IMG/VR virus record: IMGVR_UViG_3300010885_034363
Coordinates: 1-64,000 of that record
Direction: 5' to 3' (one strand)
Length of the DNA: 64,000 nucleotides
DNA from: a virus
Shown piece after piece: positions 5,527 through 59,544 of this stretch. Position numbers and translations under genes: made by a program. Every line of letters starts with the position of its first letter. Position 1 is the stretch's first letter. The notes under the pieces are model-generated. The model saw only the letters and a program-made list of their open reading frames with translations, was not told where the DNA came from and did no database searches.

Positions 5527-5542
5527 GATTATATTGTAGTTC

Positions 5543-24014: not shown

Positions 24015-24261
24015 TTCTGTACTCTCCGAGAAGCTCTTCTATGTCTACGTTTGGATATAGTTTTTGTGCTTCCTCTTCATCTATTTCGTCAATTTCTGTT
24101 GACCCAGTTATTAGTGACTTCATGACTTCACTTGTTTCAATTAGTTCGCCTTCGCGTAATTCAAACTCGTCTAACGTTTTTTTTGCATCATCAAATATTA
24201 AGACCATAAGTTTTACATTATCTGTATTGTTTTTTACTTTTGTGAAAAATCTTAACCTCAT
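24007..24261 (-). CDS. Hypothetical acidic 84-aa protein
   Basis: Short protein with a basic N-terminal strand and a strongly acidic C-terminal half (DEIDEEEAQ), beginning 4 nt inside the end of the 2338-aa gene. It may be an immunity- or chaperone-like partner for the RelA/SpoT-like domain just upstream, given its size, acidity and overlap; that is a guess from layout only. Confidence 0.5.
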   Translation of the reverse strand: MRLRFFTKVKNNTDNVKLMVLIFDDAKKTLDEFELREGELIETSEVMKSLITGSTEIDEIDEEEAQKLYPNVDIEELLGEYRNG

Positions 24262-27200
24262 GAAGAAACTCCCATTGTTTCCAATTCCCTGATTAGTGAC
24301 TTTATGTCAACTTCTTGGAATGGCTGAAACTTTGTTTCTCCTATGCTGAGTAACTCGTCAGGCGGGTATGGAACGCCGATCTTGTTAGCCATTTGAACCA
24401 TCTCATCATAAAGCTGACGGCGTTGTGCATTGTCTTTTGACTCCCTGTACGTCTCGTACAGTTTGTGTATATCTTCTTTGTCTTCAACAGACTGTGGCGT
24501 GTGGAACTGTAATTCAAATTTTGTTCCGTCTGGGCCAATTGCTGCGATGTTTATGCCCTGATATGGGTCATCGCCCTTCCAGTAGTTTTTTATTCTTAGT
24601 TTGTATCCAGCGGCTTGTAGTTCTTCTACCATGTTCTTCACGCCGGAAACATATTCTTCTGGATCAAAAGCAGTTGTGTACCTGATTACGTCGCTCATTG
24701 ACTCGGCGGCTTTTTGAGCATCGCCGCCATGTTCTGTATCTTTTTCATCAAGGATCTTGCGGACCAAAGATTTGAGTGCTTTTATTCTAAAGTCAAGACC
24801 ACGCATTTCTCCTTCATGCTTATTAGCGAGGTCAATCAGTGTCTTTGTTATCTCTTTTTCTGCTTCTACTAGTTTTTCTCTTTGTGCAGTAGCTGCTTCA
24901 ATAACGTCTCTTGGGGCGCCGGGTTTTGGTTCGGGGTTATCTGGCTCGATCATGTCGTAGCCACCGTGCTTGTACTGCACTTTTTTAATTGTTTTACCAG
25001 AAGATAGACCTGCCGACCTTCCGGGGGACGAGCCTCCCCTGCCGAATCCGTATTCGTCTTCAAGTTTCGCTAGGCTTTCTCTATCTTCTCTGCTCCATCC
25101 AGAAGTATCTGGGGCAACCGACATGAGGAAATCTCTTATTCCTGCGTCTTCTCCTGCGTACTCTTGTTCTCTGTCTGCGTCTTGCGAACGGTTGGCTTTT
25201 CCTCGCCCTAACTGACTAACGGTATTTCTGTACCAACTTGAGTAATCTGTTGATGCCTTCTGCTTGGGGTTGAAGTTTTTGGGCTGCTCCGCAGTTCCTT
25301 TTCCGAACCATCTTGACCTTGCGTCGTTATACCCAACTTCTCGTGCGCGAAGGAAATCTGGCGAGAACCTTCCGCCGACCTCATCTCGCTGACGTTCAAT
25401 TGTGGTGAAACTCATATCCATTCCAGCTTCCCAGTCTGATATGAACTTTTCGTGTGCTTCGCGTTTTGCGTTCTCTTCTGGGTCTGGGAATTGACGCTCA
25501 AGATCAGGATCCCTGTTTGAGTGACGAGTTGTCTTGCGTCCAGAAGATAGACCTGCTGACCTTCCAGAAGATAGACCTGCTGGTTGTCTGTCTTGAGTTC
25601 CCCACGGAGCGCTTGTCTCTCTCAAGTCCAAAACACGTGCTTGCATATTCTTGTTACCAAGAGCTCTATGCATAGCAACTCTGTTGTGTCCATCAATTAC
25701 GAATATCTTGCCAGTTTCATCTATCAGCAGGTATGGGTCGTAACCCTCTCTAAACGGCTCTTCACCCGAAACAACCTTGTCTATGGAGGATCCCTTGAGG
25801 TGTGACTCCGTAGGGAGAATGTCTAGATCAAGATCAACTTTTGAAACAGGAATATCGTCCCACCCATCCCATGTTTTTGCTGACTCAACGTTGGCATCTT
25901 CGGTGTATTCGAGTTTCCAGTCCATCCCGTACTCGCTCATGGGGCGATCCCTGTTTGCCTTCAAGCCAGGAGACCTATCTGGTGTTGCTCCTTTTTTAAT
26001 ATCCCTAACTACTGGAGGACTAGAATTACCATCGCCTTTTCCTGATTTTGAAGCCATACCAAAATCTGTGGCCCACTTGTTTGCTTCCCTGAGTATCTCG
26101 GATATTGGAGAGTCAACCACGATAACGTTTAGTTCAAGGTCGCCAAGTTTTCCATCGCTTAGGTCTCTTCCTACCTGAGCAGCCCATCTGTGGTGTCCGT
26201 CAATAACGTAGCCGTCTCTACTTACAAATATTGCTTCACCTTCTGGATCAAATTTTTCGTTTGTGATCATTCCCACTACTTTTGATCCAACTAACTCATT
26301 TTGCGTTGCTTTAAGTTCTGAGGCTTTTACCTTTTTCCTCTTTACGCCTATTCCTATTTTAGATAGGTGCTCTTCAAATGCTTTTGTTCCGTCAACTCCG
26401 CCCCCTTTGTCCTTTGGCAACTTGTCAGCATCAGAACCCGGAACTGGAGTACCACTGAACTGTGGCATATTTATTCTTTCTATGCCCTTTGAATCAGAGC
26501 AGAACAAGTTTGTTCCCGGCACAGAGACTCTACATAGGTCATAGTTTGGAGCCTTGTCTCCCTTGCTCAAGGCATCCTGAACTATCTCGTTTAGTTTGTC
26601 AATCAATGTTGATACTTGGTCAACTGAATCAAGTTCAACTAATTTTCCTTCTTTTATCATCTTCAGGGCATCATCAATTGATTCTGGCTTGAATATTTCT
26701 TCGCCACGGGAAGATACTGATTTCTTTGCCCCAGAAGAAAGACCTCTTCTTTTTTCCCTTCTTGTTCTGACTGCTGCTCTGGCGGCGTTCAGCTTTCCAA
26801 ATGCCCAGTCCTCTGCGCTTGTGGCATCTATGCCTTTCATTAGCAAGGCAATCATTAGCAGGTCTTTTGTTCCTTGTAGGTTGTCTGGATCTGCGTTGTT
26901 CCACTCATTCCAAGCACTTACCGCAGTTCCGACTAAGCCTGAACTTAACCCAGAACTTCTTCTAGCAGAATTTTTTGCTTTTTGTTTTTCTATAACAGAC
27001 GTTATTGCTTCAAAAAGTTCAAAAGAATCAAAATCTGCTTCGTTTTCTGGTATCGCTACATCAAGTATGTCTTCAAGCTTTTTCTTTGTATCTAATTCAA
27101 TTGTTCCATCTTCAACAAGGTAGTCAAGTTCGTCCTTAGCTAGTTCCCGCATAGCCTTTTTGCCCATTGATGTTGCGAATTTTTTAGACTCATCAGTAGT

Positions 27201-30200
27201 TAAAGTGTCAAGTGCGTCTCTTAATTGAGCGGCTAGTACATCTCTTCTTCTCTGTTCATTGACAAATGATCTATCGCCGTAGCGAAGTGGTCTGCCGCTT
27301 GGCCCAACCATTACATCATCTAACTCTTCGCCAGAAAGTCTGACCCTCGGTCTCTTGTCTACTGAATTATGGAACTCAAGAGCTTGTTTGATTATTATTT
27401 CAGACAGTTCTTCATTTGACTTTGTTTTTAGCAATGTGCGGACTGATTCAGGTACGTCTGATTCGGATATTTCAATATCGTCGTCGCTTCCGCCGAACTG
27501 GAGAACGTCACGTAGCCTCTCAAACGTCTCGGAAGTGCGTGACTGTAGTTCCACTTTTCTATCTACCGGAGAAAGCTCCTCACCATATACGTCATCAAGT
27601 GGGTCTGGATCTGCTTTTGGTGCTCTTCTCTGTGGACTACTTGAAGCTTTTACTACATCTATGTCGTCATTTATCTTTTTTGTTTTTGCTTCAATATCTT
27701 TTTGTTTTGTAAGCGGGGTAACGACAGTTGAAGACTTTCCTTCTTTTCTTCTCCTCGCAGCATGGGAGTTTACTGATTTCTCCAACTTCCTTCTTGTCCC
27801 CTTGGCATGCTGGTTTGGGTTTGGTCCTTCTTCGCCTATATTTGAGATCATTGAATCGAGTGACTGCATTGGGTCGTTTTGATGAACTATCTCAGCGATT
27901 AGAATCTCATTGCCATCGTCGTCTATTTTTGTGCCTACAATTTTAAGTTTTCCGGGAGGGAGCAGAAGTTTTTGCTCGTAGTCGTCTGGCTTATCTGAAG
28001 ATAAATCGCTCCAGTGGGGGAAGTGACCCTTCTGTCCTGCTTGAACCCGAACCATTACTCTTGTTGGCTTTTTCCCACCATCAGTAGGGTTGCCTTCCAA
28101 GGAATCAGCATTAAATGGTCTTTTCTTACCAAGAACTGAACCCGTAAGTATTCCATCCACTATTACCAAATCAGCATCTTTTTTTGCACCTAGTTGATTC
28201 AAGTCAAGATCAAGCGTTGTCTCAATCTCAATTGCATCGGTAAGTTCCGACCTGTCAATAAGTTCCAGAGATGGTATTAATATGTTGTCAACTTGACCAA
28301 CCAAAGACCCAGTAAGTCTTGATGTATCGTCAACATCAGCGCCACTGCCGTCAGAGTACATTTTGATGGCGCGACGATTTCTTTTGTTTATTGCCTTCGC
28401 AGCGCCAACTTGTTTTTCTGGATCTAAAATGTTTCCAATATCAACTTGCTCTGGATCTGCGAGTTGTGTTATTGCGTCACGCTCTTGTGGTGTTGCTGTT
28501 TTTAGAAGTTTTGCTCTTTCGTTTAATGCGTGCTCTTCTGCGTCTTTTTTACTGTTAAAAGTTTTAGGTTTTGGCTTTTGTTTTTTATTTTTTCCAGAAC
28601 TAGTTAATATTGCATCAACTTTTTTATCAATAAACTTATTTAGAGAACTTACTGACGCATTCTCGTCAGATTCGCTACGCCGATCCCTTATCGCTTGACG
28701 ATACTTTCTTTTTTCTGCTTGAAGTTTTGATTTTAGATCTTCACTGATGCCATCCTGCATGAGATCAACTTCTATCTCAGCAAGCCTGTTTAGTAGTTGT
28801 TCTTCTGTATCGTTATTGACATTATTGTTTATTTCTTCAATTCTTCTTTTTTCTGCAATTTCAGATATTTCTTTATCTGATAGCAAGCCATTTTGTTCTC
28901 TCGCAGTTTTTAAAATGTCAGAAAAGCTATCCTTAAACTTTGAGTTTCCAGCTTTTTCGTATTCTTTTGCTATGTCACTGAAGTACGAAGAATCGTCAAG
29001 ATTTCCATCTATTTTTGCTTTTTCTGCACTCGCTTCATGAGCGATTATCGCTTTAATTATTTCATCTTCAGAAAGATCTGATGCTAGAGTTTTTACATCT
29101 TTTAGATTTTGTGATCTTCTGTCATTTCTTCTTTTTCTCACATCATCAATTGATGATTGATAATATATTTTATTTTTGGAAACTTTTGATAGCGGACTTG
29201 ATCCAGCAGTATTGAAAACATCTTGCTCATATAGGTCATATTCTGCCCTATCTTCAAAAAATCTTCCATCAGAAACGTCATCCATCCACTCAAGCGCCCC
29301 ATCAACGTCGTCGCCCCATATGAGCCCAGACATTCTTAATGCAAACAATTCAGCAGATACTTCCGCTGCTCGTATCCCTGGGTTTTCTACTGTTTGTGGA
29401 TACGAGCCAGCAAGAAACTTAACTGAATCAGAACGACTCATAACGTTATTTATGGACTCAAGAAGATCGGGATCACTAAATGCATCAAGAACCGCTTCTG
29501 GTGTTATTTCTTCTACTTTTGTTATTCTTTTTTTATTTCCTTGGTAATCAAAGTATTCATAGTATCCATTTGAATCAATTTCTGATTTTATTTTTCTTCC
29601 TACTGCGGTTATTTGCAGAGTATGTCCAAGTTCGTGGTACATTATGTGCCTTGCAAAACCTTCGTGACCCAAGGCGAGGGCGGCAGTCCTGCGGGCTTCT
29701 AGTTGTGAGCTAACTAAGAAGTCGTTAGCGGCTTGTGCATTTTCTGAGTCTGAACCACCTATTGCGTCAATCCTCATTCTTGAATACTCATCAAGGCTTG
29801 GCAACATTGCTTCTTGGTTGTCCATTATTGTTTCAAGGTCAATACCTATTGTTGAGTGCTCAAAACCAGAGCCGAAAGCATTTGCCCTTGCCTCATCAGG
29901 ACCTTCTGGGTTCTTACTCCAGCTTAGTTCCCTTAAGTTTTTTCCTATATGGTCAGGCATCTGGACATACGTATCAAGCAATGCGTCGAGCATTGATCTT
30001 TCTGTTGCGTACCATCTGTCAACATCTGCTTCAATTAACTGCTGTCTTTGATTGTCAGACATTTTTGCCCAAGCTTCTGGGTTTTTGTCTCTTAATCTGT
30101 TTGATATGACTGATACAACTTCGCTGTAAGATTTTCTATCAGTAAGTTCTAATTCAAGCAATCCTCTTTTATTGAGTTCTTCAATTGCTTCTATCCTGTC

Positions 30201-31274
30201 GGCGTTAACTGCTTCTTTTTCTGGAGATGACTCTATTCCAAGTGAATCCTGAAGTCTAGAGACTCGCCGCTTTGATGCTTCAAGACCAGTTCTTGCCCTT
30301 TTTGCTCCACTGACAAACCAGCGAAACTCAGACGGTGTTTCCTCTACGGAAACATTCTCTAGATCTAGTTCTGGAGAATATGGGTCATTTCTATTCTTTG
30401 CCCTTGTCTGCTTTACTCCCCAGTGATTTTTCCACCACATATTGTTAAAGACGCGACCAGAAGAAAGTCCAGCCGTTTGCGGTCTTCCTCTTATTGCATC
30501 TCTTTCGCTGAGTTCAATACGTGACATTTCATCTGCCACGCCCGTCACTCTTCGTGCAAAATCTATTAGTTTCCCTGGAGAAAATCCAAAGCAGTTTGAA
30601 CCACTTGCATCAGTAAATTGGTTTGCGGCAGGACTTCCTGGAGGGCACCTAAACTTGTTTAAGTCGTCAACCCATATACCTAGTTTTGCTGCTGCTCTTG
30701 CGCCAAGGCTCCCACCGGCAACGCTCCTACCAATATTCATTCCTGGTAATTTTTTAAACTCAATAGATTTCTCCATTGGTTCACCAGACCAGAGCTTATA
30801 AGGATTTACCCGCTCTTCCGAGCCTTCAATAACTCCACCAGTCTTCGGACTGATCTTGTATTTACGTACACGGATTTCTGGTTTTTTTCTTTTTTCTTCT
30901 GCTTCTGGTTTTGCTTTTTCAACCCAGCCAAAGTTAACATCTTTTCTTGATTCGTTAATTTTTGATTGTAGGTTTGGAAGCCACAGGAACGTTTTGTTTT
31001 CTCCGCCCTTTTCTCCCGGCTTGAATCTCACACCGTTTATATCAACTACACCAGGAATCTCTCCGGTGTTGGTTCTTTTCTTTCCGTCTGAGTCTTTTGC
31101 ACCAGGGAGTGCTTTGACTGCAAGATCTGCATTAAGGCGTGCAGATTTAATTGAATTTATTACTGAGTTCTTAAAAGCTATGGCAGTCTCGTCAAAGTCT
31201 CTCATTTCTGAGAGAGGTGAGAAAAGACTAGGAGATAGATAGACTCTATTTTTACGGTGTCTCTTACCCGTCAT
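24258..31274 (-). CDS. Giant polyvalent protein, 2338 aa: zincin, two ParB-like domains, RelA/SpoT-like domain
   Basis: Domains in order: basic N-terminus with the CP-x-FTD-C module (residue ~220); zincin with YHELGHTL (~545) and downstream EVSAELFAL; long coiled-coil region; a strand-rich segment with YEQKLLLPPG (~1100) that resembles an ADP-ribosyltransferase but lacks a second Glu; ParB-like IDGHHRWAA (~1693) and IDGHNRVAM (~1861); a duplicated module (~1916-2078) also in the 2489-aa protein; and a C-terminal RelA/SpoT-like domain (~2110-2338) with DVIRYT, YQGINI, FELQFHT and LYETYR. LSSG motifs lie at about 272, 1445, 1515, 1903, 1910 and 2090, each at a domain border. I infer a polyprotein packaged in the head. 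Confidence 0.85.
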   Translation of the reverse strand: MTGKRHRKNRVYLSPSLFSPLSEMRDFDETAIAFKNSVINSIKSARLNADLAVKALPGAKDSDGKKRTNTGEIPGVVDINGVRFKPGEKGGENKTFLWLPNLQSKINESRKDVNFGWVEKAKPEAEEKRKKPEIRVRKYKISPKTGGVIEGSEERVNPYKLWSGEPMEKSIEFKKLPGMNIGRSVAGGSLGARAAAKLGIWVDDLNKFRCPPGSPAANQFTDASGSNCFGFSPGKLIDFARRVTGVADEMSRIELSERDAIRGRPQTAGLSSGRVFNNMWWKNHWGVKQTRAKNRNDPYSPELDLENVSVEETPSEFRWFVSGAKRARTGLEASKRRVSRLQDSLGIESSPEKEAVNADRIEAIEELNKRGLLELELTDRKSYSEVVSVISNRLRDKNPEAWAKMSDNQRQQLIEADVDRWYATERSMLDALLDTYVQMPDHIGKNLRELSWSKNPEGPDEARANAFGSGFEHSTIGIDLETIMDNQEAMLPSLDEYSRMRIDAIGGSDSENAQAANDFLVSSQLEARRTAALALGHEGFARHIMYHELGHTLQITAVGRKIKSEIDSNGYYEYFDYQGNKKRITKVEEITPEAVLDAFSDPDLLESINNVMSRSDSVKFLAGSYPQTVENPGIRAAEVSAELFALRMSGLIWGDDVDGALEWMDDVSDGRFFEDRAEYDLYEQDVFNTAGSSPLSKVSKNKIYYQSSIDDVRKRRNDRRSQNLKDVKTLASDLSEDEIIKAIIAHEASAEKAKIDGNLDDSSYFSDIAKEYEKAGNSKFKDSFSDILKTAREQNGLLSDKEISEIAEKRRIEEINNNVNNDTEEQLLNRLAEIEVDLMQDGISEDLKSKLQAEKRKYRQAIRDRRSESDENASVSSLNKFIDKKVDAILTSSGKNKKQKPKPKTFNSKKDAEEHALNERAKLLKTATPQERDAITQLADPEQVDIGNILDPEKQVGAAKAINKRNRRAIKMYSDGSGADVDDTSRLTGSLVGQVDNILIPSLELIDRSELTDAIEIETTLDLDLNQLGAKKDADLVIVDGILTGSVLGKKRPFNADSLEGNPTDGGKKPTRVMVRVQAGQKGHFPHWSDLSSDKPDDYEQKLLLPPGKLKIVGTKIDDDGNEILIAEIVHQNDPMQSLDSMISNIGEEGPNPNQHAKGTRRKLEKSVNSHAARRRKEGKSSTVVTPLTKQKDIEAKTKKINDDIDVVKASSSPQRRAPKADPDPLDDVYGEELSPVDRKVELQSRTSETFERLRDVLQFGGSDDDIEISESDVPESVRTLLKTKSNEELSEIIIKQALEFHNSVDKRPRVRLSGEELDDVMVGPSGRPLRYGDRSFVNEQRRRDVLAAQLRDALDTLTTDESKKFATSMGKKAMRELAKDELDYLVEDGTIELDTKKKLEDILDVAIPENEADFDSFELFEAITSVIEKQKAKNSARRSSGLSSGLVGTAVSAWNEWNNADPDNLQGTKDLLMIALLMKGIDATSAEDWAFGKLNAARAAVRTRREKRRGLSSGAKKSVSSRGEEIFKPESIDDALKMIKEGKLVELDSVDQVSTLIDKLNEIVQDALSKGDKAPNYDLCRVSVPGTNLFCSDSKGIERINMPQFSGTPVPGSDADKLPKDKGGGVDGTKAFEEHLSKIGIGVKRKKVKASELKATQNELVGSKVVGMITNEKFDPEGEAIFVSRDGYVIDGHHRWAAQVGRDLSDGKLGDLELNVIVVDSPISEILREANKWATDFGMASKSGKGDGNSSPPVVRDIKKGATPDRSPGLKANRDRPMSEYGMDWKLEYTEDANVESAKTWDGWDDIPVSKVDLDLDILPTESHLKGSSIDKVVSGEEPFREGYDPYLLIDETGKIFVIDGHNRVAMHRALGNKNMQARVLDLRETSAPWGTQDRQPAGLSSGRSAGLSSGRKTTRHSNRDPDLERQFPDPEENAKREAHEKFISDWEAGMDMSFTTIERQRDEVGGRFSPDFLRAREVGYNDARSRWFGKGTAEQPKNFNPKQKASTDYSSWYRNTVSQLGRGKANRSQDADREQEYAGEDAGIRDFLMSVAPDTSGWSREDRESLAKLEDEYGFGRGGSSPGRSAGLSSGKTIKKVQYKHGGYDMIEPDNPEPKPGAPRDVIEAATAQREKLVEAEKEITKTLIDLANKHEGEMRGLDFRIKALKSLVRKILDEKDTEHGGDAQKAAESMSDVIRYTTAFDPEEYVSGVKNMVEELQAAGYKLRIKNYWKGDDPYQGINIAAIGPDGTKFELQFHTPQSVEDKEDIHKLYETYRESKDNAQRRQLYDEMVQMANKIGVPYPPDELLSIGETKFQPFQEVDIKSLIRELETMGVSS
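25039..25526 (-). repeat. Dispersed module copy (RHSNRD...GFGRGG), copy 2
   Basis: A ~163-residue module whose DNA and protein match 41371-41859. Both copies start with RHSNRD and end with GFGRGG, and both are bracketed by LSSG motifs. The product has a Trp/Arg-rich helical segment (YNDARSRWFGKGTA) and contains no known active site. Confidence 0.9.
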
Positions 31275-32959: not shown

Positions 32960-35900
32960 TCATTTCTTTTTTCTTGTTGTTGGTTTCCTTGTTGTTGCTG
33001 ATCTCTTCTTTGGTGCTGGGCGTGATGCTTTTACGGCATCTGCCCTTTCCTTTGCTTCTTGCCTCGCTTCGTTGGCAATAGCGTCTGCTCTGTCTTGCGC
33101 TTCCTTGAGGGCTGGAACGTTCTCAATTATGTAATCAACGGCTTTTTGTGCAGATGTTGCTGCGCGCATCAAGCCGTCTGGATCATCTTTTAGCCTCTGT
33201 ACCCAGAATGCGAGGTATTGAGCATGGTCTTCTCTCGGCTCAACAGTTATGTCAAGTATTGACATAAGGTATGCCGTTCCAAGTTCTGCTATTAATTCCT
33301 CAAATGCATATTCTGACTCAACTTTGGGTGAACCCATGTTTGGCCTATCAAGACGACTGCTGTGCCCAGTCCAGTGAACTATCTCGTGGAGAAGTGTTCC
33401 GTAGTACCCCTCTGGAGATGAGAACTCCGAGAATGGCGGGATTACTATCTTGTCTTGAAGGGGGCTGAAGTATGCCCTATCTCCAGAATGGTTGAGGTCA
33501 ATATTTAGAGCTTTAGAGATGTCATCAACATCTGTTCTTCTCATGTCCTCAGGCAATGCATCCTCAGGGTCGTATATTGAACGATCTATCCCTTCAACCT
33601 GATCTAAGTTGAAAACATAACTTTCGCGGAGTATTCCACGGCTCTCCGTTTTAAGTTCTCCTGGATTGTTCCTATCTTCAACTTCCCTGCCAACTCTTGA
33701 GTAGAAGATAATTGGAGTTCCTTTTTCTCCCTTTTTGACACTTCCACCCTTGCTCTTCCATTGGTCAAAAGAAGCCCATATTGGCTTTTCGTAGCCACCT
33801 TCCTGCTGGGCTATTGAGAGCATTAGTGTATTTATGCCTCTGTATCTGGCCTTAGTCGTGCCGTTTTGAGGAGTCATTCCACCCATGCGCCATGGCGGTG
33901 ACCATCTTGTGCCATTTGCTATTGAATCTTCCATTTGCTGTATAACGCTCTTGGTCAATGTCTGGTATAGCTCGTCTCTTCTTCCCGACGAAAGGGGGGC
34001 GCCATCGAGCCTTGCTGGGGTTGGAATGTCTGAAATATTTGAATATGCCTTTGGCAGCGATGGGTACTTAACGTCAACGCGTGCAGTCATTTTCCTATTC
34101 GCATTTCCATCTACATTTGAGAATCTTTTTGCGCCACTACTAAGCCCAGACGAAGGATTTCCAAATATTTCATCGTACGTAAGGGATGGGAGTCCTTTTT
34201 TCTTCGCTGCTAGGTTGTATCTTTCAACCATCTCTTTTTTCTTAGAATCGGAGATACGTGATGCTTTTCCTGAAATCTTTATTGGCGAAGTAGGGCTAGC
34301 AGCCTTTGCTTTTGCTTTTCTTTCTTTCCATCTAGATATTATTCCATCTAGATCTTCCGACTTACTAAAGTTGAGAATTGCGTATGCTTTACCAACTCTG
34401 TTTTTCTCAACAACAGCCTTAAATCTCTCGTAAGCTTCTCCGGCCTGTGACATTCTGTCAAACTCTCCGACTTCTGGGCCAAATGCATCTGCGGCGCTCT
34501 TGATCACGCCACGGTCAATAAGGTGGTCAATATACTGCGATGGAACACCCTTCTTAGCCCAGTTGTTGAACCCTTGTTTGTCAATAACTAATCCTGTATC
34601 TAGTATTTTTTGCAAAACATCTAGTCTATTGTCTGGATCTGCCCCAAGTGCTTGAATTAGTTTACTCAATGGGAAGTTTGAACTCTCTAGTACAACACCT
34701 TGTGGAACCAGTTCCCCAGCATTTGCGCTAGGAGCTTTTGTTACCGTCTCGGCTCCAATGACCACATCAGACAAATCGTCCGTGTATCCAAATGGTTCTG
34801 GAGATGGGTAAACGCTTCTTAGAATTTCCCCATCCTCAAGCAGTGCTCGGAATGAATCTTTTGCTCTATCTGAATCTCTTGATGTTTTGCCAATAGAAGT
34901 TATTGTTGTTTCTTCAGTGCTATCTATCCAGTAAGGAGAGTAGCCAAATCCCCATATTTGAGTACCAACTACATCTGGGTAGTCAAGGATCCCAATACGG
35001 CTACCAACTCCTTGGGATTCTTCGGCTGACTGGAATAAAGCTCCAGCCAAACCCCTATCTTTTTCAGGGATTCGGCTAAGTTCTTGTTCGCTTATTACCG
35101 AGCTATTCACTCTTCCTTCAGTCAAGCCAAGGAAAATTGCCTCTGTTATTTTACGAATATCAAGTTCTGATACTCCATTACCTTCTGCTGTTATGCTTTC
35201 CAGTTCTTTAACTGAAATGTTCAAAGTCTTTGCTATTTGGCTGTCTGGTATTGATTTTCCAGTTTCGTCAACAAATAAGCTACGGATTTTTGCTCCATCC
35301 AGCAACCATTCTCCACCAGGAGAGTGCTCCAAGTTTTGCGTCATTGGTCTTGACTTTATTTTTGAACCAATAAATCTTGTTCTTATTTTTTCTTTAATAA
35401 GATCATTCATTGGTGGAACATAAGTGCTTCTAGCCCCGGAAGACAAACCTCTGGAAACGGTTAGTGGGAGTTGGGTTCTCCTGCTCAACCTGTTAGTTGG
35501 CGTTCCATCTCTTTGAACTAAATTAGTTGAAGAGTTTCTATTTGGTTTTCTGAAAACAGATATTTCTTCAAGTTTTCTTGGAATTGAAACAAGTCTTCCA
35601 GAAGTGTTTGGAGTTCCATCATTCCACTCCAGTGGCTTGATCCAGATATTCCTTCTGTCAACTCTTTCTACCGAGCCCCAGTCTTCTCCGCCAACCTGCA
35701 CCATGTCGCCAACTTCTACGTTGCTACGTTCTGCTAGTGCTGCGCCAGATGAAAGTCCAGCTCTAGACCTATTTTCATAGGATCCTGGCCTGTTTCCAAA
35801 TTCGTTATACCTGTCTGACAGCATACGTACTGCCATGTCTTCTTGTTCTTTGTCTCCGTCTGCAAAACTAAGCAAATCGTATGCAATTCTTTCGCGCATT

Positions 35901-36265
35901 GAAGCCAATTCTTCACGCTCATTAGCAAATGATGGTACTGATTCGTACTTTCTTCTATATCTGCTCTGTGCTTCTGAAACTTCTTTTGGCGTAGAGTTAA
36001 GCCTCTTGGCTATGTCTTCTGGAGTTAGTCCTTCGTAGCCAAGTAACCACATTTCACGGTCATTTGCGCGCTCTTCTACTCTTGCTGTTGCGCCAGATGT
36101 CCTTGAGGTACTTTTGCCTGAACTTAATTCTCTGTACTCGTCGGATGACGGGCCTGGTCTTCTTTTTCCTGGGCGTGTTTGTGCGCGTAGGATATCCCTA
36201 TCCGCAAATTTCTGCCTATCTTCTTCAGACCAGGGGCGACGATTTGATACCTCGCCCCTTACCCT
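32960..36265 (-). CDS. ardC-like: Polyvalent protein with ArdC antirestriction/zincin domain, read by -1 frameshift
   Basis: From ATG 36052 this is 1030 aa, but the frame is open for 71 more codons, without ATG, GTG or TTG, up to the slippery site at 36265. Those codons contain ELSSGK, showing they are translated. HTH-like segments occur at the N-terminus (EGLTPEDIAKRLNSTPKEV) and near residue 250. LSSG motifs lie near 103, 207, 640 and 690. After the last one comes ArdC: residues ~692-800 are the ArdC-N ssDNA-binding domain (GINTLMLSIA, FDQWKSKGGSVKKGEKG), and HEIVHWTGH near 891 is its zincin part. ArdC blocks host restriction. No ribosome binding site precedes ATG 36052. Confidence 0.85.
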   Translation of the reverse strand, partial: RVRGEVSNRRPWSEEDRQKFADRDILRAQTRPGKRRPGPSSDEYRELSSGKSTSRTSGATARVEERANDREMWLLGYEGLTPEDIAKRLNSTPKEVSEAQSRYRRKYESVPSFANEREELASMRERIAYDLLSFADGDKEQEDMAVRMLSDRYNEFGNRPGSYENRSRAGLSSGAALAERSNVEVGDMVQVGGEDWGSVERVDRRNIWIKPLEWNDGTPNTSGRLVSIPRKLEEISVFRKPNRNSSTNLVQRDGTPTNRLSRRTQLPLTVSRGLSSGARSTYVPPMNDLIKEKIRTRFIGSKIKSRPMTQNLEHSPGGEWLLDGAKIRSLFVDETGKSIPDSQIAKTLNISVKELESITAEGNGVSELDIRKITEAIFLGLTEGRVNSSVISEQELSRIPEKDRGLAGALFQSAEESQGVGSRIGILDYPDVVGTQIWGFGYSPYWIDSTEETTITSIGKTSRDSDRAKDSFRALLEDGEILRSVYPSPEPFGYTDDLSDVVIGAETVTKAPSANAGELVPQGVVLESSNFPLSKLIQALGADPDNRLDVLQKILDTGLVIDKQGFNNWAKKGVPSQYIDHLIDRGVIKSAADAFGPEVGEFDRMSQAGEAYERFKAVVEKNRVGKAYAILNFSKSEDLDGIISRWKERKAKAKAASPTSPIKISGKASRISDSKKKEMVERYNLAAKKKGLPSLTYDEIFGNPSSGLSSGAKRFSNVDGNANRKMTARVDVKYPSLPKAYSNISDIPTPARLDGAPLSSGRRDELYQTLTKSVIQQMEDSIANGTRWSPPWRMGGMTPQNGTTKARYRGINTLMLSIAQQEGGYEKPIWASFDQWKSKGGSVKKGEKGTPIIFYSRVGREVEDRNNPGELKTESRGILRESYVFNLDQVEGIDRSIYDPEDALPEDMRRTDVDDISKALNIDLNHSGDRAYFSPLQDKIVIPPFSEFSSPEGYYGTLLHEIVHWTGHSSRLDRPNMGSPKVESEYAFEELIAELGTAYLMSILDITVEPREDHAQYLAFWVQRLKDDPDGLMRAATSAQKAVDYIIENVPALKEAQDRADAIANEARQEAKERADAVKASRPAPKKRSATTRKPTTRKKK

Positions 36266-36271
36266 TTTTTT
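36233..36271 (-). other. -1 programmed ribosomal frameshift signal
   Basis: Read on the minus strand: seven A residues (36271-36265) in the phase A_AAA_AAA, a 6-nt spacer GGGTAA (containing the zero-frame stop), then a perfect 7-bp stem GGGGCGA / TCGCCCC (36258-36252 and 36239-36233) with a 12-nt loop. A -1 slip moves reading from the protease polyprotein frame exactly into the open 71-codon lead of the ArdC frame. Slippery run, spacer and GC-rich stem match the classical design. Confidence 0.85.
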
Positions 36272-39200
36272 CTGTTACGTCCTGACGAGAGTCCACGCCC
36301 AGAATCTCTTCCAGACATTTCTCCGCTATCTTCACGCATTATCAAGTCGCTCTCAAGCCCAGCGATCCATCTCTTGAAAGAAGGGTCATTTGGGTTTGGG
36401 GACTTGCCTGTTTCACGCCTGTAGCTTGCGAACGCAGAAGCCCTCTCAGATGACGGACGGCTCATGAATGAACTGTACATCCTGTCGGTTTCTGCCATGT
36501 CGGCATCAAGCAATGACTCACGTCTAGCGCTGTTCTCATCTGCGGCTATTGTGTCTTGCATCATCTCACGACGCCCAGATGAGAGGGAAGAACGTCGAGC
36601 GCTTCTTGGGTTACCAGAATCACTGAAGTTCATGTAGTTAGCAACCATGTCATTAACCTGTGCTGACATTTTACCATCACCAAAAAATGCAGCTTCCGAT
36701 ACTTCTTCTGCCAAATCGTCTCGATTGCTTCTATATTCATCAAGCTGTTGATTAAGTTCATTTACTCTTGAGTTTATTTCTTCAACCAATTTTGTGTATT
36801 CGTCTAGTTCAATGTCGCCTTCATCAAGATCCATTCTTGCTGACTCAAGTTCAAGTTTTGCTGCCTCAACTTCTCTATATGTATCCGGAATTAGTTCTCT
36901 TGCATCTTCTAGATCCTGAGACTTCCTGTCGTACCTGTCCTCAAACATTTCAACTTCATCACGGATCTTTTGAATAAAATCATCAAGATCAGCAAGACTA
37001 TCAACCGTTTCCGAACGTAATGGACCTCCATTATTTTTGTCAAAGTCGTATACGTCCATTGCGTTTATTTGTCTTTGTACGTCTGGATTTTTTTCGTATA
37101 CTGCTTTTACTATTTCTTCACGCACCTTGAGAGCATGTTCCAATTTTGCAAGTTGGTAATTTCTTATTTCATCTCGATATGGTGCTGAGTTTTCTGCGTT
37201 TGGCATTACATATGAATACAGTTGTTCACCTGAAAATTCTTTTTCAACTTCTGGTGTCTCTGCCAAAACTTGAATAGCTGCTGTCCTGAGGGACGATTCG
37301 TTATTTGCATCAATCCTCTCGTAAGCATCGCCCATTGGCTCAAACTTCATTCCAGAAGACATTCCTCTTGTTGCTGTTGAACTGTATACAGATCCAGCTA
37401 CCGTTCCTACGTCTACGCCGTCGCTGTCACTTCTGCTGCGTCCAGAGGAGAGTCCCCTTGCGCTGCTTGGTGTTCTAGGCTTGCTAGGAACGTCAACATC
37501 TTGCAATGCTGCGTTGACTGCGTTTGTCGCTTCTGCTTCAAGTTTAAAGATTTCATTTATATTTTCTTTTTCTGAAGCATTTAGAGCTGGGTCATTTGCT
37601 TGTAGTTTTGATGCAACTTCTTTATAGCGGTTTAATTCAAGTTCAATCTGTTTTGCCTGATTGAAAGCCAATACCCGTATAACGTTTTCGTCAGGTATCA
37701 AAGCAGCAACATCATTAAAAACTAAACCAGAAAGAATCTCTTCTGCGTCTTCATCATCTTTTGCTTGTCCGCTGTCTACGAGGACATTTACTAAATTCCA
37801 ATCTTTTATTAGATCCTGCTTGGCATCTTCTACATCATAAAATGCACTTTCAGAACCAATGTACTCGCCATCTTCATCAAAGTCTTCTGATAAATTTTCT
37901 TCAAATATTTCTCTTGCCGTAGATGCTAAATCCTCATCATCTACGTCATATATTTCCTTGAGCTTTGCGTTGACTATTTTATTATCTTCTGATCGCAGCG
38001 CTTCAAGATCTTTATCGGCAGTTTCAAACGATACTCCAGCTAAGCGTAGCTTTTGCTTGGCTAGCCTTAGTGCTTGAACATCTTTCATACGCTGAGTTGA
38101 TGGGTGTTCTGCAATAAGATCACTTCTTCTAGAAAGTATATCTTTGTTGGTTTTTAATGCAGTGTCATACTCTTGTGCCAGCTCAATTCTTTCTCTTCTT
38201 AGCCTTTGCACTTCTCTTGATGGAGATGGTATATCAGTAGCTCTTCTATCGCCGTCAAAAGTTTCAGGAGCTAACTCTGCTACTGAATCAAGAACATCAT
38301 GTATCTGCAATGGCGTTGCATTAAACCTGTAAGCAAGTTCATCTACGCTTAGTCCACTATGTGAAAAATCTTTAGCTATTGCTTCAGCAACTAATTGCTT
38401 TTTGTATTCCGTTTCGTCTTCACTCATCTGCCCAAACTGACGAATACGCTTTGGCTTTAGTTTTCCATCAAATGGCAATCCCATCCTAAAGCGCCTCGCA
38501 GCTGCAAGTCTTTGCACTCTGCCTGATATGGCAGGGCTTTTTTCTCCAGCAACAACTGGGTATTCGGCTAGGAGTTCTTGGTACGGGATTGTAACGTAGT
38601 CCCTCCAGAACATATCGTGGTCTTCTGCTGGTGTATCGGGAGTATCCCAGTTATGTGGTCGGGTTTTTGATGTTCCGTCATCTGGAGTGTCATAAACCCA
38701 TTGTCCGGACTTTCCGTCCCAACGCGGCCTATGAGGTTCTCCATTGAGTTGTGCGTAATCGCTTGGATCTCTCTTTGAAGGATCGTATTCCTCTCCGTAC
38801 CTACCAGAAGACAGACCACCCCTGCCGTAAGGCCTATCAAGGTAGTCATCGTACGCACTGGTCATTGCCTCAAGCGTGTTGCCATTAGCCATTCCTATGT
38901 ACCGATTATGAATGGCATCACTTTCTTCCCAGTACCCAACTATGCTTGCTGCATCATCTGAAGAAACGCCATTTTCCTTGAGTGCGTTAATCGCGTCTCT
39001 TCTGAAGTTTGCTGAATAACCATATTTTGCTGGATTGTCTTCAAAGTCGGCTTTGGCAATTTCTGGGTCATAATCACGCGAACCGGGTCGTTCGCTGTTT
39101 GCATTGTCTACGAAATAAATCTGCTCAATATTGGATCGTTCATTGTCGCTGAGTTCTTCCCATGAGGAGAATGGTTTACCTAGTTCTCTTCTTCCAGAAG

Positions 39201-42200
39201 ACAATCCTCTTCTGCCTGAAGACATTCCTGCTCTGCTGTATGGGCCAGATGACGTGCTTTGCCTGCTTGCTCCAGGGATAAGTCCCTCTATTCTGTCAAG
39301 CCTGAATGTCCTATATTCACCGGACTCGCTATCTATGCCACCAAAGTAAAGAGCTCCAGCCTTTGACCGACGAAGAGAGTCGTAAATACCATTATCCGAC
39401 TCTGCTCTGATCTCACGCATTTTGCCGTTGTACTTGAATGCAACCGCATCTGGGGAAACAAACAAGTATCTGAAGTTTGCACCAATGTCATCGGTGCGGG
39501 CTGCTGCCTCTTCTGGGGTTATGTTTGCTGGGTCTCCTTGGCGTGGATCAATTCCTCGTCCAGAAGAGAGACCACCTTCACCTTCTAGGCCAGCCTCAAG
39601 TTCGGATGAAGTCTTTAAAAAGTTCCGCTGCTCATCTTCGGACATTGAATCTTCTATTGCTTGCCTGATGTCATAACTGTCTTCATCGTACGAGCGGTAC
39701 CCAAAGTCGCCGGGGCGGTTTTTGTAGTCGGACTTATTGATGCCGTGGTTTCTTTCTAAATAATCCCAACCAGGGTCGTCGCTTAGTGAACTCGTAGTGT
39801 TGGTCAGTACTTCATATACTTCGTAACCTAGATCTTCAGTGGAAAATTCGTCTATTTCTTTCAGGCGCTCAGCCAATGGCACATCTTTGCCAAGGGAGTT
39901 GACGACAAGTTTTTCACCAGTTGGCTTTTTACCAGAAGACAGACCACCTTCTGGAATAAATATACCTCTAGTTGCGCCACTTTCATAGTCTCTTATTGAC
40001 TTTTCAAACTGTTCTGGCGTCATATTTGCTCTGAGGGCGGTAAGGAAATCCTCGCCAGTCATTTCATCAATAGACTCTGATATATATGCTTCTTCAACTT
40101 CATCGCTTGATGGGCTGTAGTCACGTTCTGACCCACGTGATCCAGATGACTCAAAACCAAAATCAACACTGCCCGCATACGAGTCAAGTTCATCTTCATC
40201 CGGCATGCCACCATAAACGGCATCATAGATCTCTGCGTCACTCATCACGTCCCGTGCGGAGTTTGATGAATAGTCATACCAAGAGTTATCACCTGTAATC
40301 GTTCCGTCAGATATCAACTTCTCAATTACGTCTGCGTATTTTTTATCATTATCAGAAAGGTTTATATAAACTTCTTCTTTGCGATGATCGGGAAGTGCTG
40401 CAACCATCCTCAGTCGTTCTTTTAATTGCTCAGGAGACATTCTTCTACCAGAAGACAGACCACCCCTGCCATACGGTCTATCAAGGTAGTCGTCGTAAGC
40501 ACTGGTCATTGCCTCAAGCGTGTCGCCATTTGCATTTCTCAGGTAGCGCTTATGAATAGCGTCATTCTGTTCCCAGTTGGCAACTATGTCTCCTGCTTCA
40601 TCTGAGGAGAGTCCAGTTTTCTTGAGTGCATTGACAGCGTCTCTTCTGAAGTTTGCAGAGTAACCATACTTTGATGGATTATCTTCAAAGTCTGCTTTAG
40701 CAATTTCTGGGTCGTAGTCACGTGAACCAGGACGCTCGCTGCCTGGATTATCCGCAAAATACGTCTGCTCAATAGCGGAGCGCTCATTATTGCTGAGTTC
40801 TTCGTATGAGGAGAATGGCTTGCCTAGTTCTCTTCTACCAGAAGAGAGACCACCTCGTTCGGCATCCATTTCGGCAAGCATTTCAAATGCCTTCTCATAT
40901 TCAGCGTCGTTTGTTTTGTTGTTTCTAAGCTTTTTAATTGTTGGGTGGTCTTCTTCGAGGACCCCTCTGTCAATCAGGAAATCGGCAAGTGCTTTAGGAT
41001 CGTTTCCTGCTTCTTCTTCTGCGAGGTCTACCCAACTCTTTTTACCAGAAGAGAGACCATCCCGCTGAATATCTGCGGCTAGAATTTCTTGCATTTTCTG
41101 TGCAACCAGTGAATTTGGCTCCCCATACTCATTGGTTAATCTATATCCCGGAACGCCCTCATTTGAAAGAGCTTCCCTTGCTCTTTGCATGATGGAGTCA
41201 TATTCTGCATCACCAGAATTCGCCATCTCCTCAAGCCTGCGCTCGGCAGTCATCATTGCTCGATTTTTTGAGGTATTTCTTAGACTTGGGTCAACTGTCC
41301 GTTTAGGCTTTCTAGGCTTTGCGGGAATGTCTCCAGATTCATTAAAGCGAATGCCAGAAGAGAGACCGCCTCTACCGAATCCATATTCGCTTTCGAGTTT
41401 GGCTAGACTTTCTCTATCTTCCCTGGCCCAGCCAGAAGTATCTGGAGCGACGGCCATGAGGAAATCTTTCATTCCTGCGTCAATTCCTGCGTACTGCTGT
41501 TCTCTGCTTGAATCTTCCGAGCGGTTAGCTTTGCCTCGTCCTAATTGAGAAACGACGTCTCTGTACCAACTTGAATACTTCGTAGAAGCCTTCTGCTTTT
41601 CATTGAAGTCTTTTGGCTGCTTTGCTGTGCCTTTGCCAAACCAGCGTGACCTTGCGTCGTTGTAGCCAAGTTCACGACCACGAAGGAAGTCCTCTGAGAA
41701 TCTGCCACCACGCTCGTCTTGCTGACGCCCAATCGTGGTGAAGCTCATGTCCATGCCAGCTTCCCATGCATCAATCAGTTTGTCATGCGCTTCTCTCTTT
41801 GCATTTTCTTCTGCATTTGGGAATTGCTTCTCAAGGTCACGATCCCTATTTGAGTGACGGCTCAGATCTCTTTTACCAGAAGATAGAGCTCTCCTGTCTG
41901 CTGCTGGTTTCTTGCTTCCGCCTTTTTGCTTCTTGAATGCTGCTGTTGCGCGTGCTGCGTCAACGACGCCTCTTGTTCCGAAGTCATTGATGCCTGGAAT
42001 TGCTGGTCTTTGGTATGGAGTTCCTTCTTGAACTAATCCGTCGTTGTCGCCGTCCCATGCCTTTGGATTAAATCTTGCAGCCATTCCACGGCCAGCCCTA
42101 GCAGTACGTCCTGCAAGGTTTCTGCCGAGTGCTTTTACTGCGTTATTAACTGCTTCTGCAAAATCTTTATTTACGCCAGATGTGAAAACAATTCCACCAT

Positions 42201-43728
42201 CATCAACATATGCTTCTGCTCGGTAGTAGTCAATGATTGGGTCAATTGCCTGCTTCATCTCAAATGCATCTTTTTTAGTTACTGGCAAGTAATAAATTTC
42301 ATTGCTTGCAGACTTTACGGAGTATTCGCCTATGCGTGTCAACTTGACTGAAGGCACAAGCGCATCACGCTTGCTCTTGACTGCATGCCTTAGGTCGCCT
42401 TTTACAAATACTTCTAGGTACTTGTCTTCAACCTCTTTGAGCCACTTGACTTCTTCTTCTTGCATTTCTTCTAAGACTTCTTGCTTCTTGATAGGGCTTA
42501 CCTTCACTACGCCCTCTGGGATAACGGCGAAGCGACACTTGCCACCATCTTCCACTTTCAATGCAATTATCTTGCAAACACCATTGCCTTCATACATGAC
42601 GCAGTTTGAGCATTTGACGCCAATTTTTGCGACCATGTTCTCCGCTGCAGGCTTATATCCAGCCCAAACGCCGTTCGCATCTTCGTTGAACTTGCCGTGT
42701 CTTTTGGTTATCTTTATAAGGGCTTCAGCAAGATCTGCTTCTTCCTGAACCAACTTTGGCTTTCCTGCTGGCTTGCTTGATGAATCTTCACCAGCGTAGT
42801 CAATTTGAACAAGTGGCATCTGGTTAGGCATGCCACCTGGCAAGACCTGTGGAACAATAACTGTCTGATTTGGATTCTGTGGAACCATTGGACGCGAAGG
42901 CATTCCCATTGGCATCATTGGTTGTGGTTGTTGTGGCATCTGGCCTGGCATTTGCATTGGCTTATTTATGCGCTGTGGAGCAGAGAACATATAGGTACCG
43001 TTGTCATTATGAAAACGACACTTGTATGACTCTTCTTCGTCTTCTTCGCCAGTGGTAAATGTGACAGAGCCATCCTCAATGGACGAGATCTTTACTTTTG
43101 ATCCAGTTTGCAAAGAAAGTTCTTCCTGCAGCTTCCTCTGAACTTCATCTTCTGGGATGTTTGGCATTCCCTGCATCATTGGCATCATCATTGGTTTTAC
43201 GCCATCTGCGTTTTTTACAGAAATTGTGCCAGTCAGCTGATTAGCACCGTGCAAAACTGGAGAAACTTCATAGAGTTCAACTTCGTACAAGATGTTTGCT
43301 TGTGATCCTTGGTCAAACTGTGCACGGAGAGTTTTGTATCCGATAGACCACTCTTGCTCTTCACCAAAAAATGCAACATTGGCGAATGCTTCTTTGCCTT
43401 TTTCTGAGTTTAAGTTGAATTGGACTTTCGCATAAAGTCCACCGATTCCGGCTGATCTCATTTTTGGTGGGAGGCGAGGATCGTTTGGCGGAACCTCATA
43501 CATTTCAAGGACTTTACCTATTGGATCGTTCCAGTTATGACCCCATACAACACGTGGCTTACGGCGCAGAAGGCTCTTAGCAAATGCTCCAGTTGCGCAT
43601 ACGTCACCAACGGAATCCTTGTTACCTATACCAGCAACAAAACACTCAACTATTCCCTGTGCTTGGTCTAGATTTACCTGACCAGTGCTTGCTTTGTATT
43701 GAATATTTTGTGAGTATGTATAGGACAT
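36259..43728 (-). CDS. Prohead protease fused to a giant cassette polyprotein, 2489 aa
   Basis: Residues 1-175 are an HK97-type prohead protease: catalytic His in VVWGHNW (64), Ser in EWSIGY (128), and ELYEVSPV. A Pro/Met-rich linker, a Cys cluster with CSNCVMY (~372) and a Ca-loop DGDNDG module (~559) follow. From residue ~618 to the end are 14 LSSG-type motifs delimiting cassettes. These include the RHSNRD module, two copies of a ~136-residue module, a WYL-like segment (ALYFGGID, YRTFRLDRIEG; ~1413-1476), an HTH (SVDELAYRFNATPLQI) and coiled coils. Start: AAAGGAG before ATG 43728. Related proteases are ~200-600 aa, so this is vastly extended. Self-cleavage at the motifs is inferred. Confidence 0.88.
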   Translation of the reverse strand: MSYTYSQNIQYKASTGQVNLDQAQGIVECFVAGIGNKDSVGDVCATGAFAKSLLRRKPRVVWGHNWNDPIGKVLEMYEVPPNDPRLPPKMRSAGIGGLYAKVQFNLNSEKGKEAFANVAFFGEEQEWSIGYKTLRAQFDQGSQANILYEVELYEVSPVLHGANQLTGTISVKNADGVKPMMMPMMQGMPNIPEDEVQRKLQEELSLQTGSKVKISSIEDGSVTFTTGEEDEEESYKCRFHNDNGTYMFSAPQRINKPMQMPGQMPQQPQPMMPMGMPSRPMVPQNPNQTVIVPQVLPGGMPNQMPLVQIDYAGEDSSSKPAGKPKLVQEEADLAEALIKITKRHGKFNEDANGVWAGYKPAAENMVAKIGVKCSNCVMYEGNGVCKIIALKVEDGGKCRFAVIPEGVVKVSPIKKQEVLEEMQEEEVKWLKEVEDKYLEVFVKGDLRHAVKSKRDALVPSVKLTRIGEYSVKSASNEIYYLPVTKKDAFEMKQAIDPIIDYYRAEAYVDDGGIVFTSGVNKDFAEAVNNAVKALGRNLAGRTARAGRGMAARFNPKAWDGDNDGLVQEGTPYQRPAIPGINDFGTRGVVDAARATAAFKKQKGGSKKPAADRRALSSGKRDLSRHSNRDRDLEKQFPNAEENAKREAHDKLIDAWEAGMDMSFTTIGRQQDERGGRFSEDFLRGRELGYNDARSRWFGKGTAKQPKDFNEKQKASTKYSSWYRDVVSQLGRGKANRSEDSSREQQYAGIDAGMKDFLMAVAPDTSGWAREDRESLAKLESEYGFGRGGLSSGIRFNESGDIPAKPRKPKRTVDPSLRNTSKNRAMMTAERRLEEMANSGDAEYDSIMQRAREALSNEGVPGYRLTNEYGEPNSLVAQKMQEILAADIQRDGLSSGKKSWVDLAEEEAGNDPKALADFLIDRGVLEEDHPTIKKLRNNKTNDAEYEKAFEMLAEMDAERGGLSSGRRELGKPFSSYEELSNNERSAIEQTYFADNPGSERPGSRDYDPEIAKADFEDNPSKYGYSANFRRDAVNALKKTGLSSDEAGDIVANWEQNDAIHKRYLRNANGDTLEAMTSAYDDYLDRPYGRGGLSSGRRMSPEQLKERLRMVAALPDHRKEEVYINLSDNDKKYADVIEKLISDGTITGDNSWYDYSSNSARDVMSDAEIYDAVYGGMPDEDELDSYAGSVDFGFESSGSRGSERDYSPSSDEVEEAYISESIDEMTGEDFLTALRANMTPEQFEKSIRDYESGATRGIFIPEGGLSSGKKPTGEKLVVNSLGKDVPLAERLKEIDEFSTEDLGYEVYEVLTNTTSSLSDDPGWDYLERNHGINKSDYKNRPGDFGYRSYDEDSYDIRQAIEDSMSEDEQRNFLKTSSELEAGLEGEGGLSSGRGIDPRQGDPANITPEEAAARTDDIGANFRYLFVSPDAVAFKYNGKMREIRAESDNGIYDSLRRSKAGALYFGGIDSESGEYRTFRLDRIEGLIPGASRQSTSSGPYSRAGMSSGRRGLSSGRRELGKPFSSWEELSDNERSNIEQIYFVDNANSERPGSRDYDPEIAKADFEDNPAKYGYSANFRRDAINALKENGVSSDDAASIVGYWEESDAIHNRYIGMANGNTLEAMTSAYDDYLDRPYGRGGLSSGRYGEEYDPSKRDPSDYAQLNGEPHRPRWDGKSGQWVYDTPDDGTSKTRPHNWDTPDTPAEDHDMFWRDYVTIPYQELLAEYPVVAGEKSPAISGRVQRLAAARRFRMGLPFDGKLKPKRIRQFGQMSEDETEYKKQLVAEAIAKDFSHSGLSVDELAYRFNATPLQIHDVLDSVAELAPETFDGDRRATDIPSPSREVQRLRRERIELAQEYDTALKTNKDILSRRSDLIAEHPSTQRMKDVQALRLAKQKLRLAGVSFETADKDLEALRSEDNKIVNAKLKEIYDVDDEDLASTAREIFEENLSEDFDEDGEYIGSESAFYDVEDAKQDLIKDWNLVNVLVDSGQAKDDEDAEEILSGLVFNDVAALIPDENVIRVLAFNQAKQIELELNRYKEVASKLQANDPALNASEKENINEIFKLEAEATNAVNAALQDVDVPSKPRTPSSARGLSSGRSRSDSDGVDVGTVAGSVYSSTATRGMSSGMKFEPMGDAYERIDANNESSLRTAAIQVLAETPEVEKEFSGEQLYSYVMPNAENSAPYRDEIRNYQLAKLEHALKVREEIVKAVYEKNPDVQRQINAMDVYDFDKNNGGPLRSETVDSLADLDDFIQKIRDEVEMFEDRYDRKSQDLEDARELIPDTYREVEAAKLELESARMDLDEGDIELDEYTKLVEEINSRVNELNQQLDEYRSNRDDLAEEVSEAAFFGDGKMSAQVNDMVANYMNFSDSGNPRSARRSSLSSGRREMMQDTIAADENSARRESLLDADMAETDRMYSSFMSRPSSERASAFASYRRETGKSPNPNDPSFKRWIAGLESDLIMREDSGEMSGRDSGRGLSSGRNRKKG
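38801..39209 (-). repeat. 409-bp module inside the protease polyprotein, copy B
   Basis: Homologous at DNA and protein level to 40445-40853 and of identical length. It encodes GRRELGKPFSS through TSAYDDYLDRPYGRGG and is bounded on both sides by GLSSGR. The copies differ by many synonymous and some conservative changes, so this is an old duplication under selection. Confidence 0.92.
40445..40853 (-). repeat. 409-bp module inside the protease polyprotein, copy A
   Basis: The first-translated copy of the same module. Both copies hold DYDPEIAKADFEDNP, YGYSANFRRDA and DYLDRPYGRGG. Between them lie about 1.2 kb of other cassettes, including the WYL-like one. Confidence 0.92.
41371..41859 (-). repeat. 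Dispersed module copy (RHSNRD...GFGRGG), copy 1
   Basis: Matches 25039-25526 in the 2338-aa gene, about 16 kb away. The module starts just after ALSSGK and ends just before GLSSGI, so the duplicated unit coincides with the interval between motifs. Confidence 0.9.
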
Positions 43729-45916: not shown

Positions 45917-46033
45917 TTACTCACGACCCAAGATATAACCGAATAGGCCGCAGGAGATACCCGCGGTTATTAAACCAGCTGGCGCATAGATTAACCCAGC
46001 GCCAATTCCACTCAACAGTATAAATGAACTCAT
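45917..46033 (-). CDS. 38-aa small membrane protein upstream of portal
   Basis: ATG at 46033, stop 5 nt before the portal ATG. Nearly the whole sequence is hydrophobic with Gly/Ala turns (FILLSGIGAGLIYAPAGLITAG, shown here in part as FILLSGIGAGL and AGLITAGIS), ending in a charged GRE. It fits one or two short membrane passes. Similar mini membrane proteins occur before portal genes in some actinophages. The gene lies at the divergent junction with the terminase. Confidence 0.55.
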   Translation of the reverse strand: MSSFILLSGIGAGLIYAPAGLITAGISCGLFGYILGRE

Positions 46034-46147
46034 TAGCAAATAAGCGAAGGTTGACCGATTAAACTTGATTAGCAGTGACTGCAGGATTTTTCGCATATGC
46101 TACACAGTAGCCTAATGCAGTGGCTTGTGGCGTAGGAGATAAAAATA

Positions 46148-58783: not shown

Positions 58784-59323
58784 ATGACAACAGAAAATAA
58801 CTCACTCTATACTCCAGAAGAGCCAGCAAAAACACCAAAACAACCTGTTTTGGCAAAGGCTCCTGCTGATGAAACATTGTTGCAGAAACTGACCAGTACG
58901 ATCAATAAAAAAGTTGAACGTCAGGCTGTCCACATAGATGTTCCAGAACGTCCCGGTGTAAGCATCAAGATTAGCCCTAACATTACTCAGAATCAGATGC
59001 GCCAGTGGAGAAAGAATGCTGGTGAGGATTCAAGAAACGGTATGGACGCAACAAAGTTTGCCTGTTCCGTTATTGGTCATACAACCGTTGGTATCTACAT
59101 GAATGGCGAAGAAGTATTTGACGAAGATGGCAATGAATTGACATTTGCTTCTCCGTTAGTTCTCAAGATGACCGAAACGACACGACCACTTCCAGACTGT
59201 GTTCGTGAATTCTTTGGGGTTGACCCTCATATTGAGGCTGCCGCTCTTGCAATCCTTGATGCTTCTGGCTACTCAGACACGGTGGAAACTGTGGACCCTA
59301 CGAAGGAGTCTTCAGCGATCTAG
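58784..59323 (+). CDS. Tail assembly chaperone (short form)
   Basis: 179 aa between tube and tape measure, the standard place for the G/GT-type chaperone. It has a basic/Pro-rich N-terminus, then RPGVSIKISPNITQNQMRQWRKNAG and a helical end. The stop is bypassed by a -1 shift to add the downstream 57-residue extension. Confidence 0.8.
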   Translation: MTTENNSLYTPEEPAKTPKQPVLAKAPADETLLQKLTSTINKKVERQAVHIDVPERPGVSIKISPNITQNQMRQWRKNAGEDSRNGMDATKFACSVIGHTTVGIYMNGEEVFDEDGNELTFASPLVLKMTETTRPLPDCVREFFGVDPHIEAAALAILDASGYSDTVETVDPTKESSAI

Positions 59324-59333
59324 TTGAGGACTC
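59293..59333 (+). other. -1 frameshift signal in tail chaperone
   Basis: GGACCCT (59293-59299), a 6-nt spacer and a 9-bp stem GAGTCTTCA / TGAGGACTC (59306-59314, 59325-59333; one wobble) with a 10-nt loop. The -1 frame is open only from 59260, so the shift must happen here. The slip site is non-canonical: only CCT to CCC re-pairs well. Confidence 0.6.
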
Positions 59334-59493: not shown

Positions 59494-59544
59494 AAACCCC
59501 ATTCTTACACTCACGTGATTTTCATAAAATCGTGGAGCTCGCAA

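Follow-up and report, generated by a model that had tools for sequence, protein, structure and literature searches.

In a 64,000-nucleotide stretch of viral DNA (hereafter the window, positions 1 to 64,000 of the single metagenomic record IMGVR_UViG_3300010885_034363), the open reading frame (ORF) at 36259-43728 on the minus strand and the -1 frame that continues it are strongly supported as one gene, encoding a giant late-operon polyprotein with an S78 protease first and an ArdC-type domain last. Comparison with related phages indicates that this fusion is ancestral and plainly translated in the family and that the split in the window's phage is derived, since the relatives read the junction in one frame with the protease. 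For the split itself, the explanation that is narrowly the most likely, with about an even chance of being correct, is that this lineage alone has acquired a -1 ribosomal frameshift helped by a hairpin.

Two reading frames of a single polyprotein gene

The gene is laid out as follows.
36259-43728, minus strand: 0-frame ORF of 2489 aa, with an N-terminal S78-type head maturation protease followed by modules punctuated by LSSG(R/K)
32960-36274, minus strand: -1 frame, open for 1104 codons (1101 from 36265)
32963-33973, minus strand: C-terminal part with ArdcN and MPTase-PolyVal domains, ArdC-like anti-restriction (PF08401, 1e-29; PF18818, 2e-37; phrog_7245, 1e-82)

The protease occupies residues ~9-176 of the 2489-aa ORF (PF04586, 8e-11; phrog_80, 1.5e-26), whose C-terminal end, GLSSGRNRKKG*, lies at an in-phase A7 run, and portal and head genes adjoin the polyprotein gene. 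The -1 frame is closed by a TAA at 36277-36275 directly upstream and is open from 36274 to 32963. Its first ATG, GTG or TTG is the ATG at 36052, leaving ~71 upstream codons with no start codon, within which an LSSGK motif begins at 36127. Because a conserved module precedes any start codon, the -1 frame would be entered only from the upstream frame, and because its 1,101 open codons, the conserved module and the ArdC domain are all intact, it is presumably either under selection or only just broken. Fusion of the two frames gives a product of 3589 residues. A preliminary description of this DNA, made from its letters and a list of ORFs, had proposed a product of about this size and an open stretch of 71 codons lacking a start codon but containing LSSGK, and both were confirmed.

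Slippery heptamer and hairpin at the junction

On the minus strand the junction reads ...AAC AGA AAA AAA GGG TAA GGGGCGA GGTATCAAATCG TCGCCCC TGG..., with the following elements.
36262-36274, minus strand: 13-nt segment in which the frame can change, with the -1 stop TAA (36277-36275) before it and the 0-frame stop TAA (36261-36259) after it
36265-36271, minus strand: A_AAA_AAA heptamer, in X_XXY_YYZ phase with the 0 frame
36232-36259, minus strand: 8-bp hairpin AGGGGCGA / TCGCCCCT with a 12-nt loop, 5 nt past the heptamer (45-nt fold, -20.6 kcal/mol)
36086-36240, minus strand: conserved module RPWSEEDRQKFADRDILRAQTRPGKRRPGPSSDEYRELSSGK (approximate limits), the first module past the junction

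Given the -1 stop just upstream and the 0-frame stop just downstream, the change of frame is confined to 36274-36262. The heptamer at 36271-36265 is indeed in the right phase with the 2489-aa ORF, as had been claimed, and the proposed 6-nt spacer and 7-bp GC stem were also found (spacer GGGTAA, 36264-36259; stem core 36258-36252 with 36239-36233). When an A-T pair is added, the GC-rich stem becomes 8 bp long (36259-36252 with 36239-36232) and the spacer, GGGTA, is 5 nt.

The A7 run is ordinary, as there are two such runs in the gene, and runs of seven or more number 15 for A and 31 for T across the window. The hairpin at that place is statistically unusual and beyond chance: only 0.08% of the gene's codon positions have a 45-nt fold as strong as -20.6 kcal/mol, 26 kb of minus strand hold four such folds including this hairpin, and shuffling the coding frame synonymously 5,000 times never gave one as strong. 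In related and module-bearing contigs, an equally strong fold follows 15 of 1,721 A6-9 runs (0.9%); one of these lies in a polyprotein-family contig and the other 14 in contigs with the stand-alone module only, many of the 14 folds being repeated stem-loops that lie ahead of promoter-like TATAAT boxes.

Related phages read the junction in one frame

Related phages were collected by protease and portal searches, with E<1e-6 as the threshold for a junction match. The module spanning the junction is composed of LSSGR, a basic linker and RPWSxEDRQRFADxxxLRAQTxPGKRRPGPSxDEF, and the part past the junction is well conserved at the protein level (HMM E 5e-22), in agreement with the earlier proposal that the two ORFs make one protein with real coding before ATG 36052. 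Module and protease share one uninterrupted ORF in 49 of 51 related loci (~27 distinct sequences), and relatives also carry LSSG and a basic linker ahead of the module. The two exceptions were rejected as support for frameshifting: L104 lies in a contig that is broken in several places, and L124 has an in-frame TAA ~1,000 codons upstream.

No frame change at the junction was found among the related loci. In the 27 distinct junction DNA sequences the length of the A-run is not conserved, the longest run ranging from 2 to 9, and the sequences have no hairpin in common; where the run reaches A9, as in L021, L017 and others, the frame is continuous. A search with the module alignment widened the set to 44 distinct module sequences, among which the window's is the only polyprotein-borne copy to start at the edge of a frame. 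The junction break is absent from all 29 other distinct polyprotein-borne copies, and of 30 ends of LSSG-bearing ORFs, the window's is the only one beyond which a -1 frame carries more such motifs. When the 120-aa peptide across the junction served as a single query no match was confirmed, whereas the module-alignment search did find relatives. No identical or near-identical phage was found by a pattern scan, in phage DNA or in the module search of bacterial and archaeal genomes, although the collections searched may lack the very closest records.

The content of the chain differs among relatives: at L048:1022-10762 the protease, sigma-70 region 4, ArdC and a WYL domain lie in one 3247-aa frame, and at L013:9914-19477 a UvrD helicase is found between protease and module. 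The module past the junction, in the form WSxEDRQxFADxNxLRAxTIPxKRK, also exists as a small stand-alone gene of ~45-70 aa in seven other loci (L196, L198, L199, L205, L207, L209 and L213), and two examples of this gene gave no PHROG match.

With respect to what is expected of a programmed -1 frameshift, the heptamer is in phase inside the overlap of the frames, the downstream structure is within about 5-9 nt and stronger than chance, and a conserved protein in the -1 frame is fused to the 0-frame product; the site and frame layout are not kept in the relatives, about 50 loci of which are continuous. The suggestion that frameshifting is the family's route to the fusion, holding ArdC at a fixed low ratio, is therefore not supported, as the relatives are single-frame and L048 includes ArdC too. 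Conservation of the A7 and stem in related contigs was checked, and neither is kept. The preliminary description had itself named the loss of the A-run or stem in relatives that retain both frames as evidence against it, and this is largely what we observed; its heptamer, its stem and its claim of one protein stand, and the family-wide ratio device does not.

Derived frameshift or lost base

If the split is bridged by a derived frameshift, ribosomes would slip on A_AAA_AAA, aided by the 8-bp hairpin 5 nt downstream, so that a fraction of the chains would continue into the WSxEDRQ module, an HTH-like stretch and ArdC. The remaining ribosomes, which would be most of them, would stop a few residues past a complete LSSG-bounded upstream module, and the protease might cut in cis at the LSSG motifs. 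Frameshifting is favoured because the junction is pinned to 13 nt with an in-phase A7 and a strong, well-spaced hairpin and because no other real frame break was found in the ~23 kb of the window covered by relatives, and it is disfavoured because the junction is not conserved, one-base breaks are measurable in such contigs and the window comes from one metagenomic record to which no close relative was found. Apparent frame breaks at ~46.1 kb and ~49.5 kb were rejected, since they are antisense to conserved plus-strand genes, the one at 46.1 kb adjoining a small real gene (45920-46063). A further point against frameshifting is that the A_AAA_AAA heptamer slips less readily in E. coli than A_AAA_AAG does (PMC5009743). 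The fuller evolutionary proposal, which we hold at slightly below even, is that an ancestral single-frame polyprotein was turned to frameshift control in one lineage by an A7 and a selected hairpin right after an LSSG site, leaving the ArdC half in a set minority of chains, as against every chain in the relatives.

The principal alternative, somewhat less probable but to be taken seriously, is that this is a normal single-frame gene whose A/G run is one base short, because of a recent mutation or an error in assembly or sequencing, the hairpin being coincidental or contributing to the error. In about 50 related loci the junction lies within a single frame, and one extra base in the run restores the family arrangement exactly. 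Homopolymers are the usual place for indels. Such breaks do occur elsewhere in the family: 441 kb of conserved genes yielded four two-frame matches, two being from the L104 contig (L104/L175, IMGVR_UViG_3300011268_001154), which has several frame breaks, and in L208 a G-run at an LSSG site has lost a single base, whereas L014 and L096 have this site intact. Corrective frameshifting of indels has been reviewed (PMC5009743). Against a lost base, the break coincides with an in-phase heptamer that is followed, at a spacing of exactly 5 nt, by a hairpin ranking among the four strongest in 26 kb, a coincidence expected by chance in ~0.1-1% of cases. The parts of the contig that are covered by homology also show no second real break of frame.

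A rough weighing can be made from these figures, which are judgements. By our own estimate, with the bad contig left out and polyproteins added, the break rate is ~1 per 235 kb, or a few percent for the gene; multiplied by ~4% for the right run, direction and phase and by 0.1-1% for the hairpin, this gives the weight of an indel, to be set against a prior of ~1e-4 to 1e-3 for frameshifting in such a gene multiplied by ~0.1. The result leans to frameshifting, but this prior is poorly constrained and a hairpin could itself give rise to errors, and for these reasons we place the frameshift no higher than even and keep the missing base as a substantial possibility.

The two other alternatives are both very improbable. 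Transcriptional slippage on the A7, adding an A to some mRNAs while the ribosome keeps its frame, is suggested by the homopolymer at the junction and by the known correction of frame through poly(A) slippage in some bacteria (PMC5009743), but the documented efficient bacterial cases have about nine A's or T's (PMC5009743), for which seven is short, the hairpin is left unexplained and the A9 relatives are continuous in frame. Two separate proteins, the ArdC half being started at ATG 36052 (1030 aa from there) or by reinitiation, are hard to reconcile with the conserved module and LSSGK, which precede this ATG without a change of frame and are part of the fusion in relatives, and no Shine-Dalgarno-like sequence was seen by eye before it.

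LSSG(R/K) as a putative processing signal

The fusion contains 19 copies of [LMF]SSG, compared with 0.27 in shuffles. A ~130-aa module (RELGKPFSS...YDDYLDRPYGRG) is duplicated at 40848-40458 and 39204-38814 on the minus strand, both copies being bounded exactly by LSSGR. Because the motif is strongly repeated, bounds duplicated modules and separates modules found alone elsewhere, LSSG(R/K) probably marks where the leading protease processes the chain. We found no paper under the motif names LSSGR or LSSGK. In addition to 32963-43728 (minus strand), LSSG(R/K/A) is present in at least three other ORFs of the window, 1951-5565 (minus), 24258-31274 (minus) and 59515-63966 (plus), and these include head-morphogenesis-like and tape-measure-sized ORFs. 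This suggests a common processing signal across the LSSG-bearing ORFs.

Comparison with known systems

In tailed phages, -1 frameshifts are usually those of the tail-assembly chaperone (G/GT), and the candidate described here is of the -1 class but in a different gene and position. The window also has an apparent G/GT arrangement at 58784-59494 (plus strand), where an ORF ends at 59323, the -1 frame is open to ~59494 and a tape-measure-sized ORF follows at 59515; no strong stem was seen in a short look at this chaperone region. In retroviral Gag-Pol, a slippery site and a stem join a structural/protease part to enzymes. The junction resembles it in having a slippery site and stem and a protease part joined to an enzyme part, and differs in that there is no conserved ratio device and homologous phages translate the full fusion directly.

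Outside tail chaperones, -1 frameshifting in phages is known from coat genes, such as gene 10 of T3 and T7 and those of Lactobacillus A2 and Listeria A118 and A500 (PMC5009743). These share with our candidate site an in-phase heptamer, a short spacer, a stem-loop and a 0-frame stop just downstream, and their use in head genes is also lineage-variable (PMC5009743). In contrast, the 0-frame product here is a 2489-aa protease polyprotein, the putative extension has 1,101 codons and the relatives need no frameshift.

It has been proposed (Iyer et al. 2017, PMC5512222) that polyvalent proteins of phages and conjugative elements are packaged and injected and that peptidases embedded in them set them free, and those with ArdC and MPTase domains have been likened to polyproteins (PMC5512222). 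The present product likewise carries ArdcN and MPTase-PolyVal in a multidomain chain encoded with virion genes, but here an S78 head protease leads the chain and LSSG(R/K) is repeated between modules. The polyprotein may be packaged and proteolytically released.

Implications

If the frameshift is real, a head-protease polyprotein would recently have gained a gag-pol-like control, for which the constitutive relatives offer a natural comparison. If it is not, the case illustrates how a one-base break in a metagenomic contig can look like a frameshift site, and the breaks in L104/L175 and L208 are a warning about indels in such records. Even then, the analysis exposes a widespread family of protease-led phage polyproteins punctuated by LSSG(R/K), which is likely a testable processing signal.
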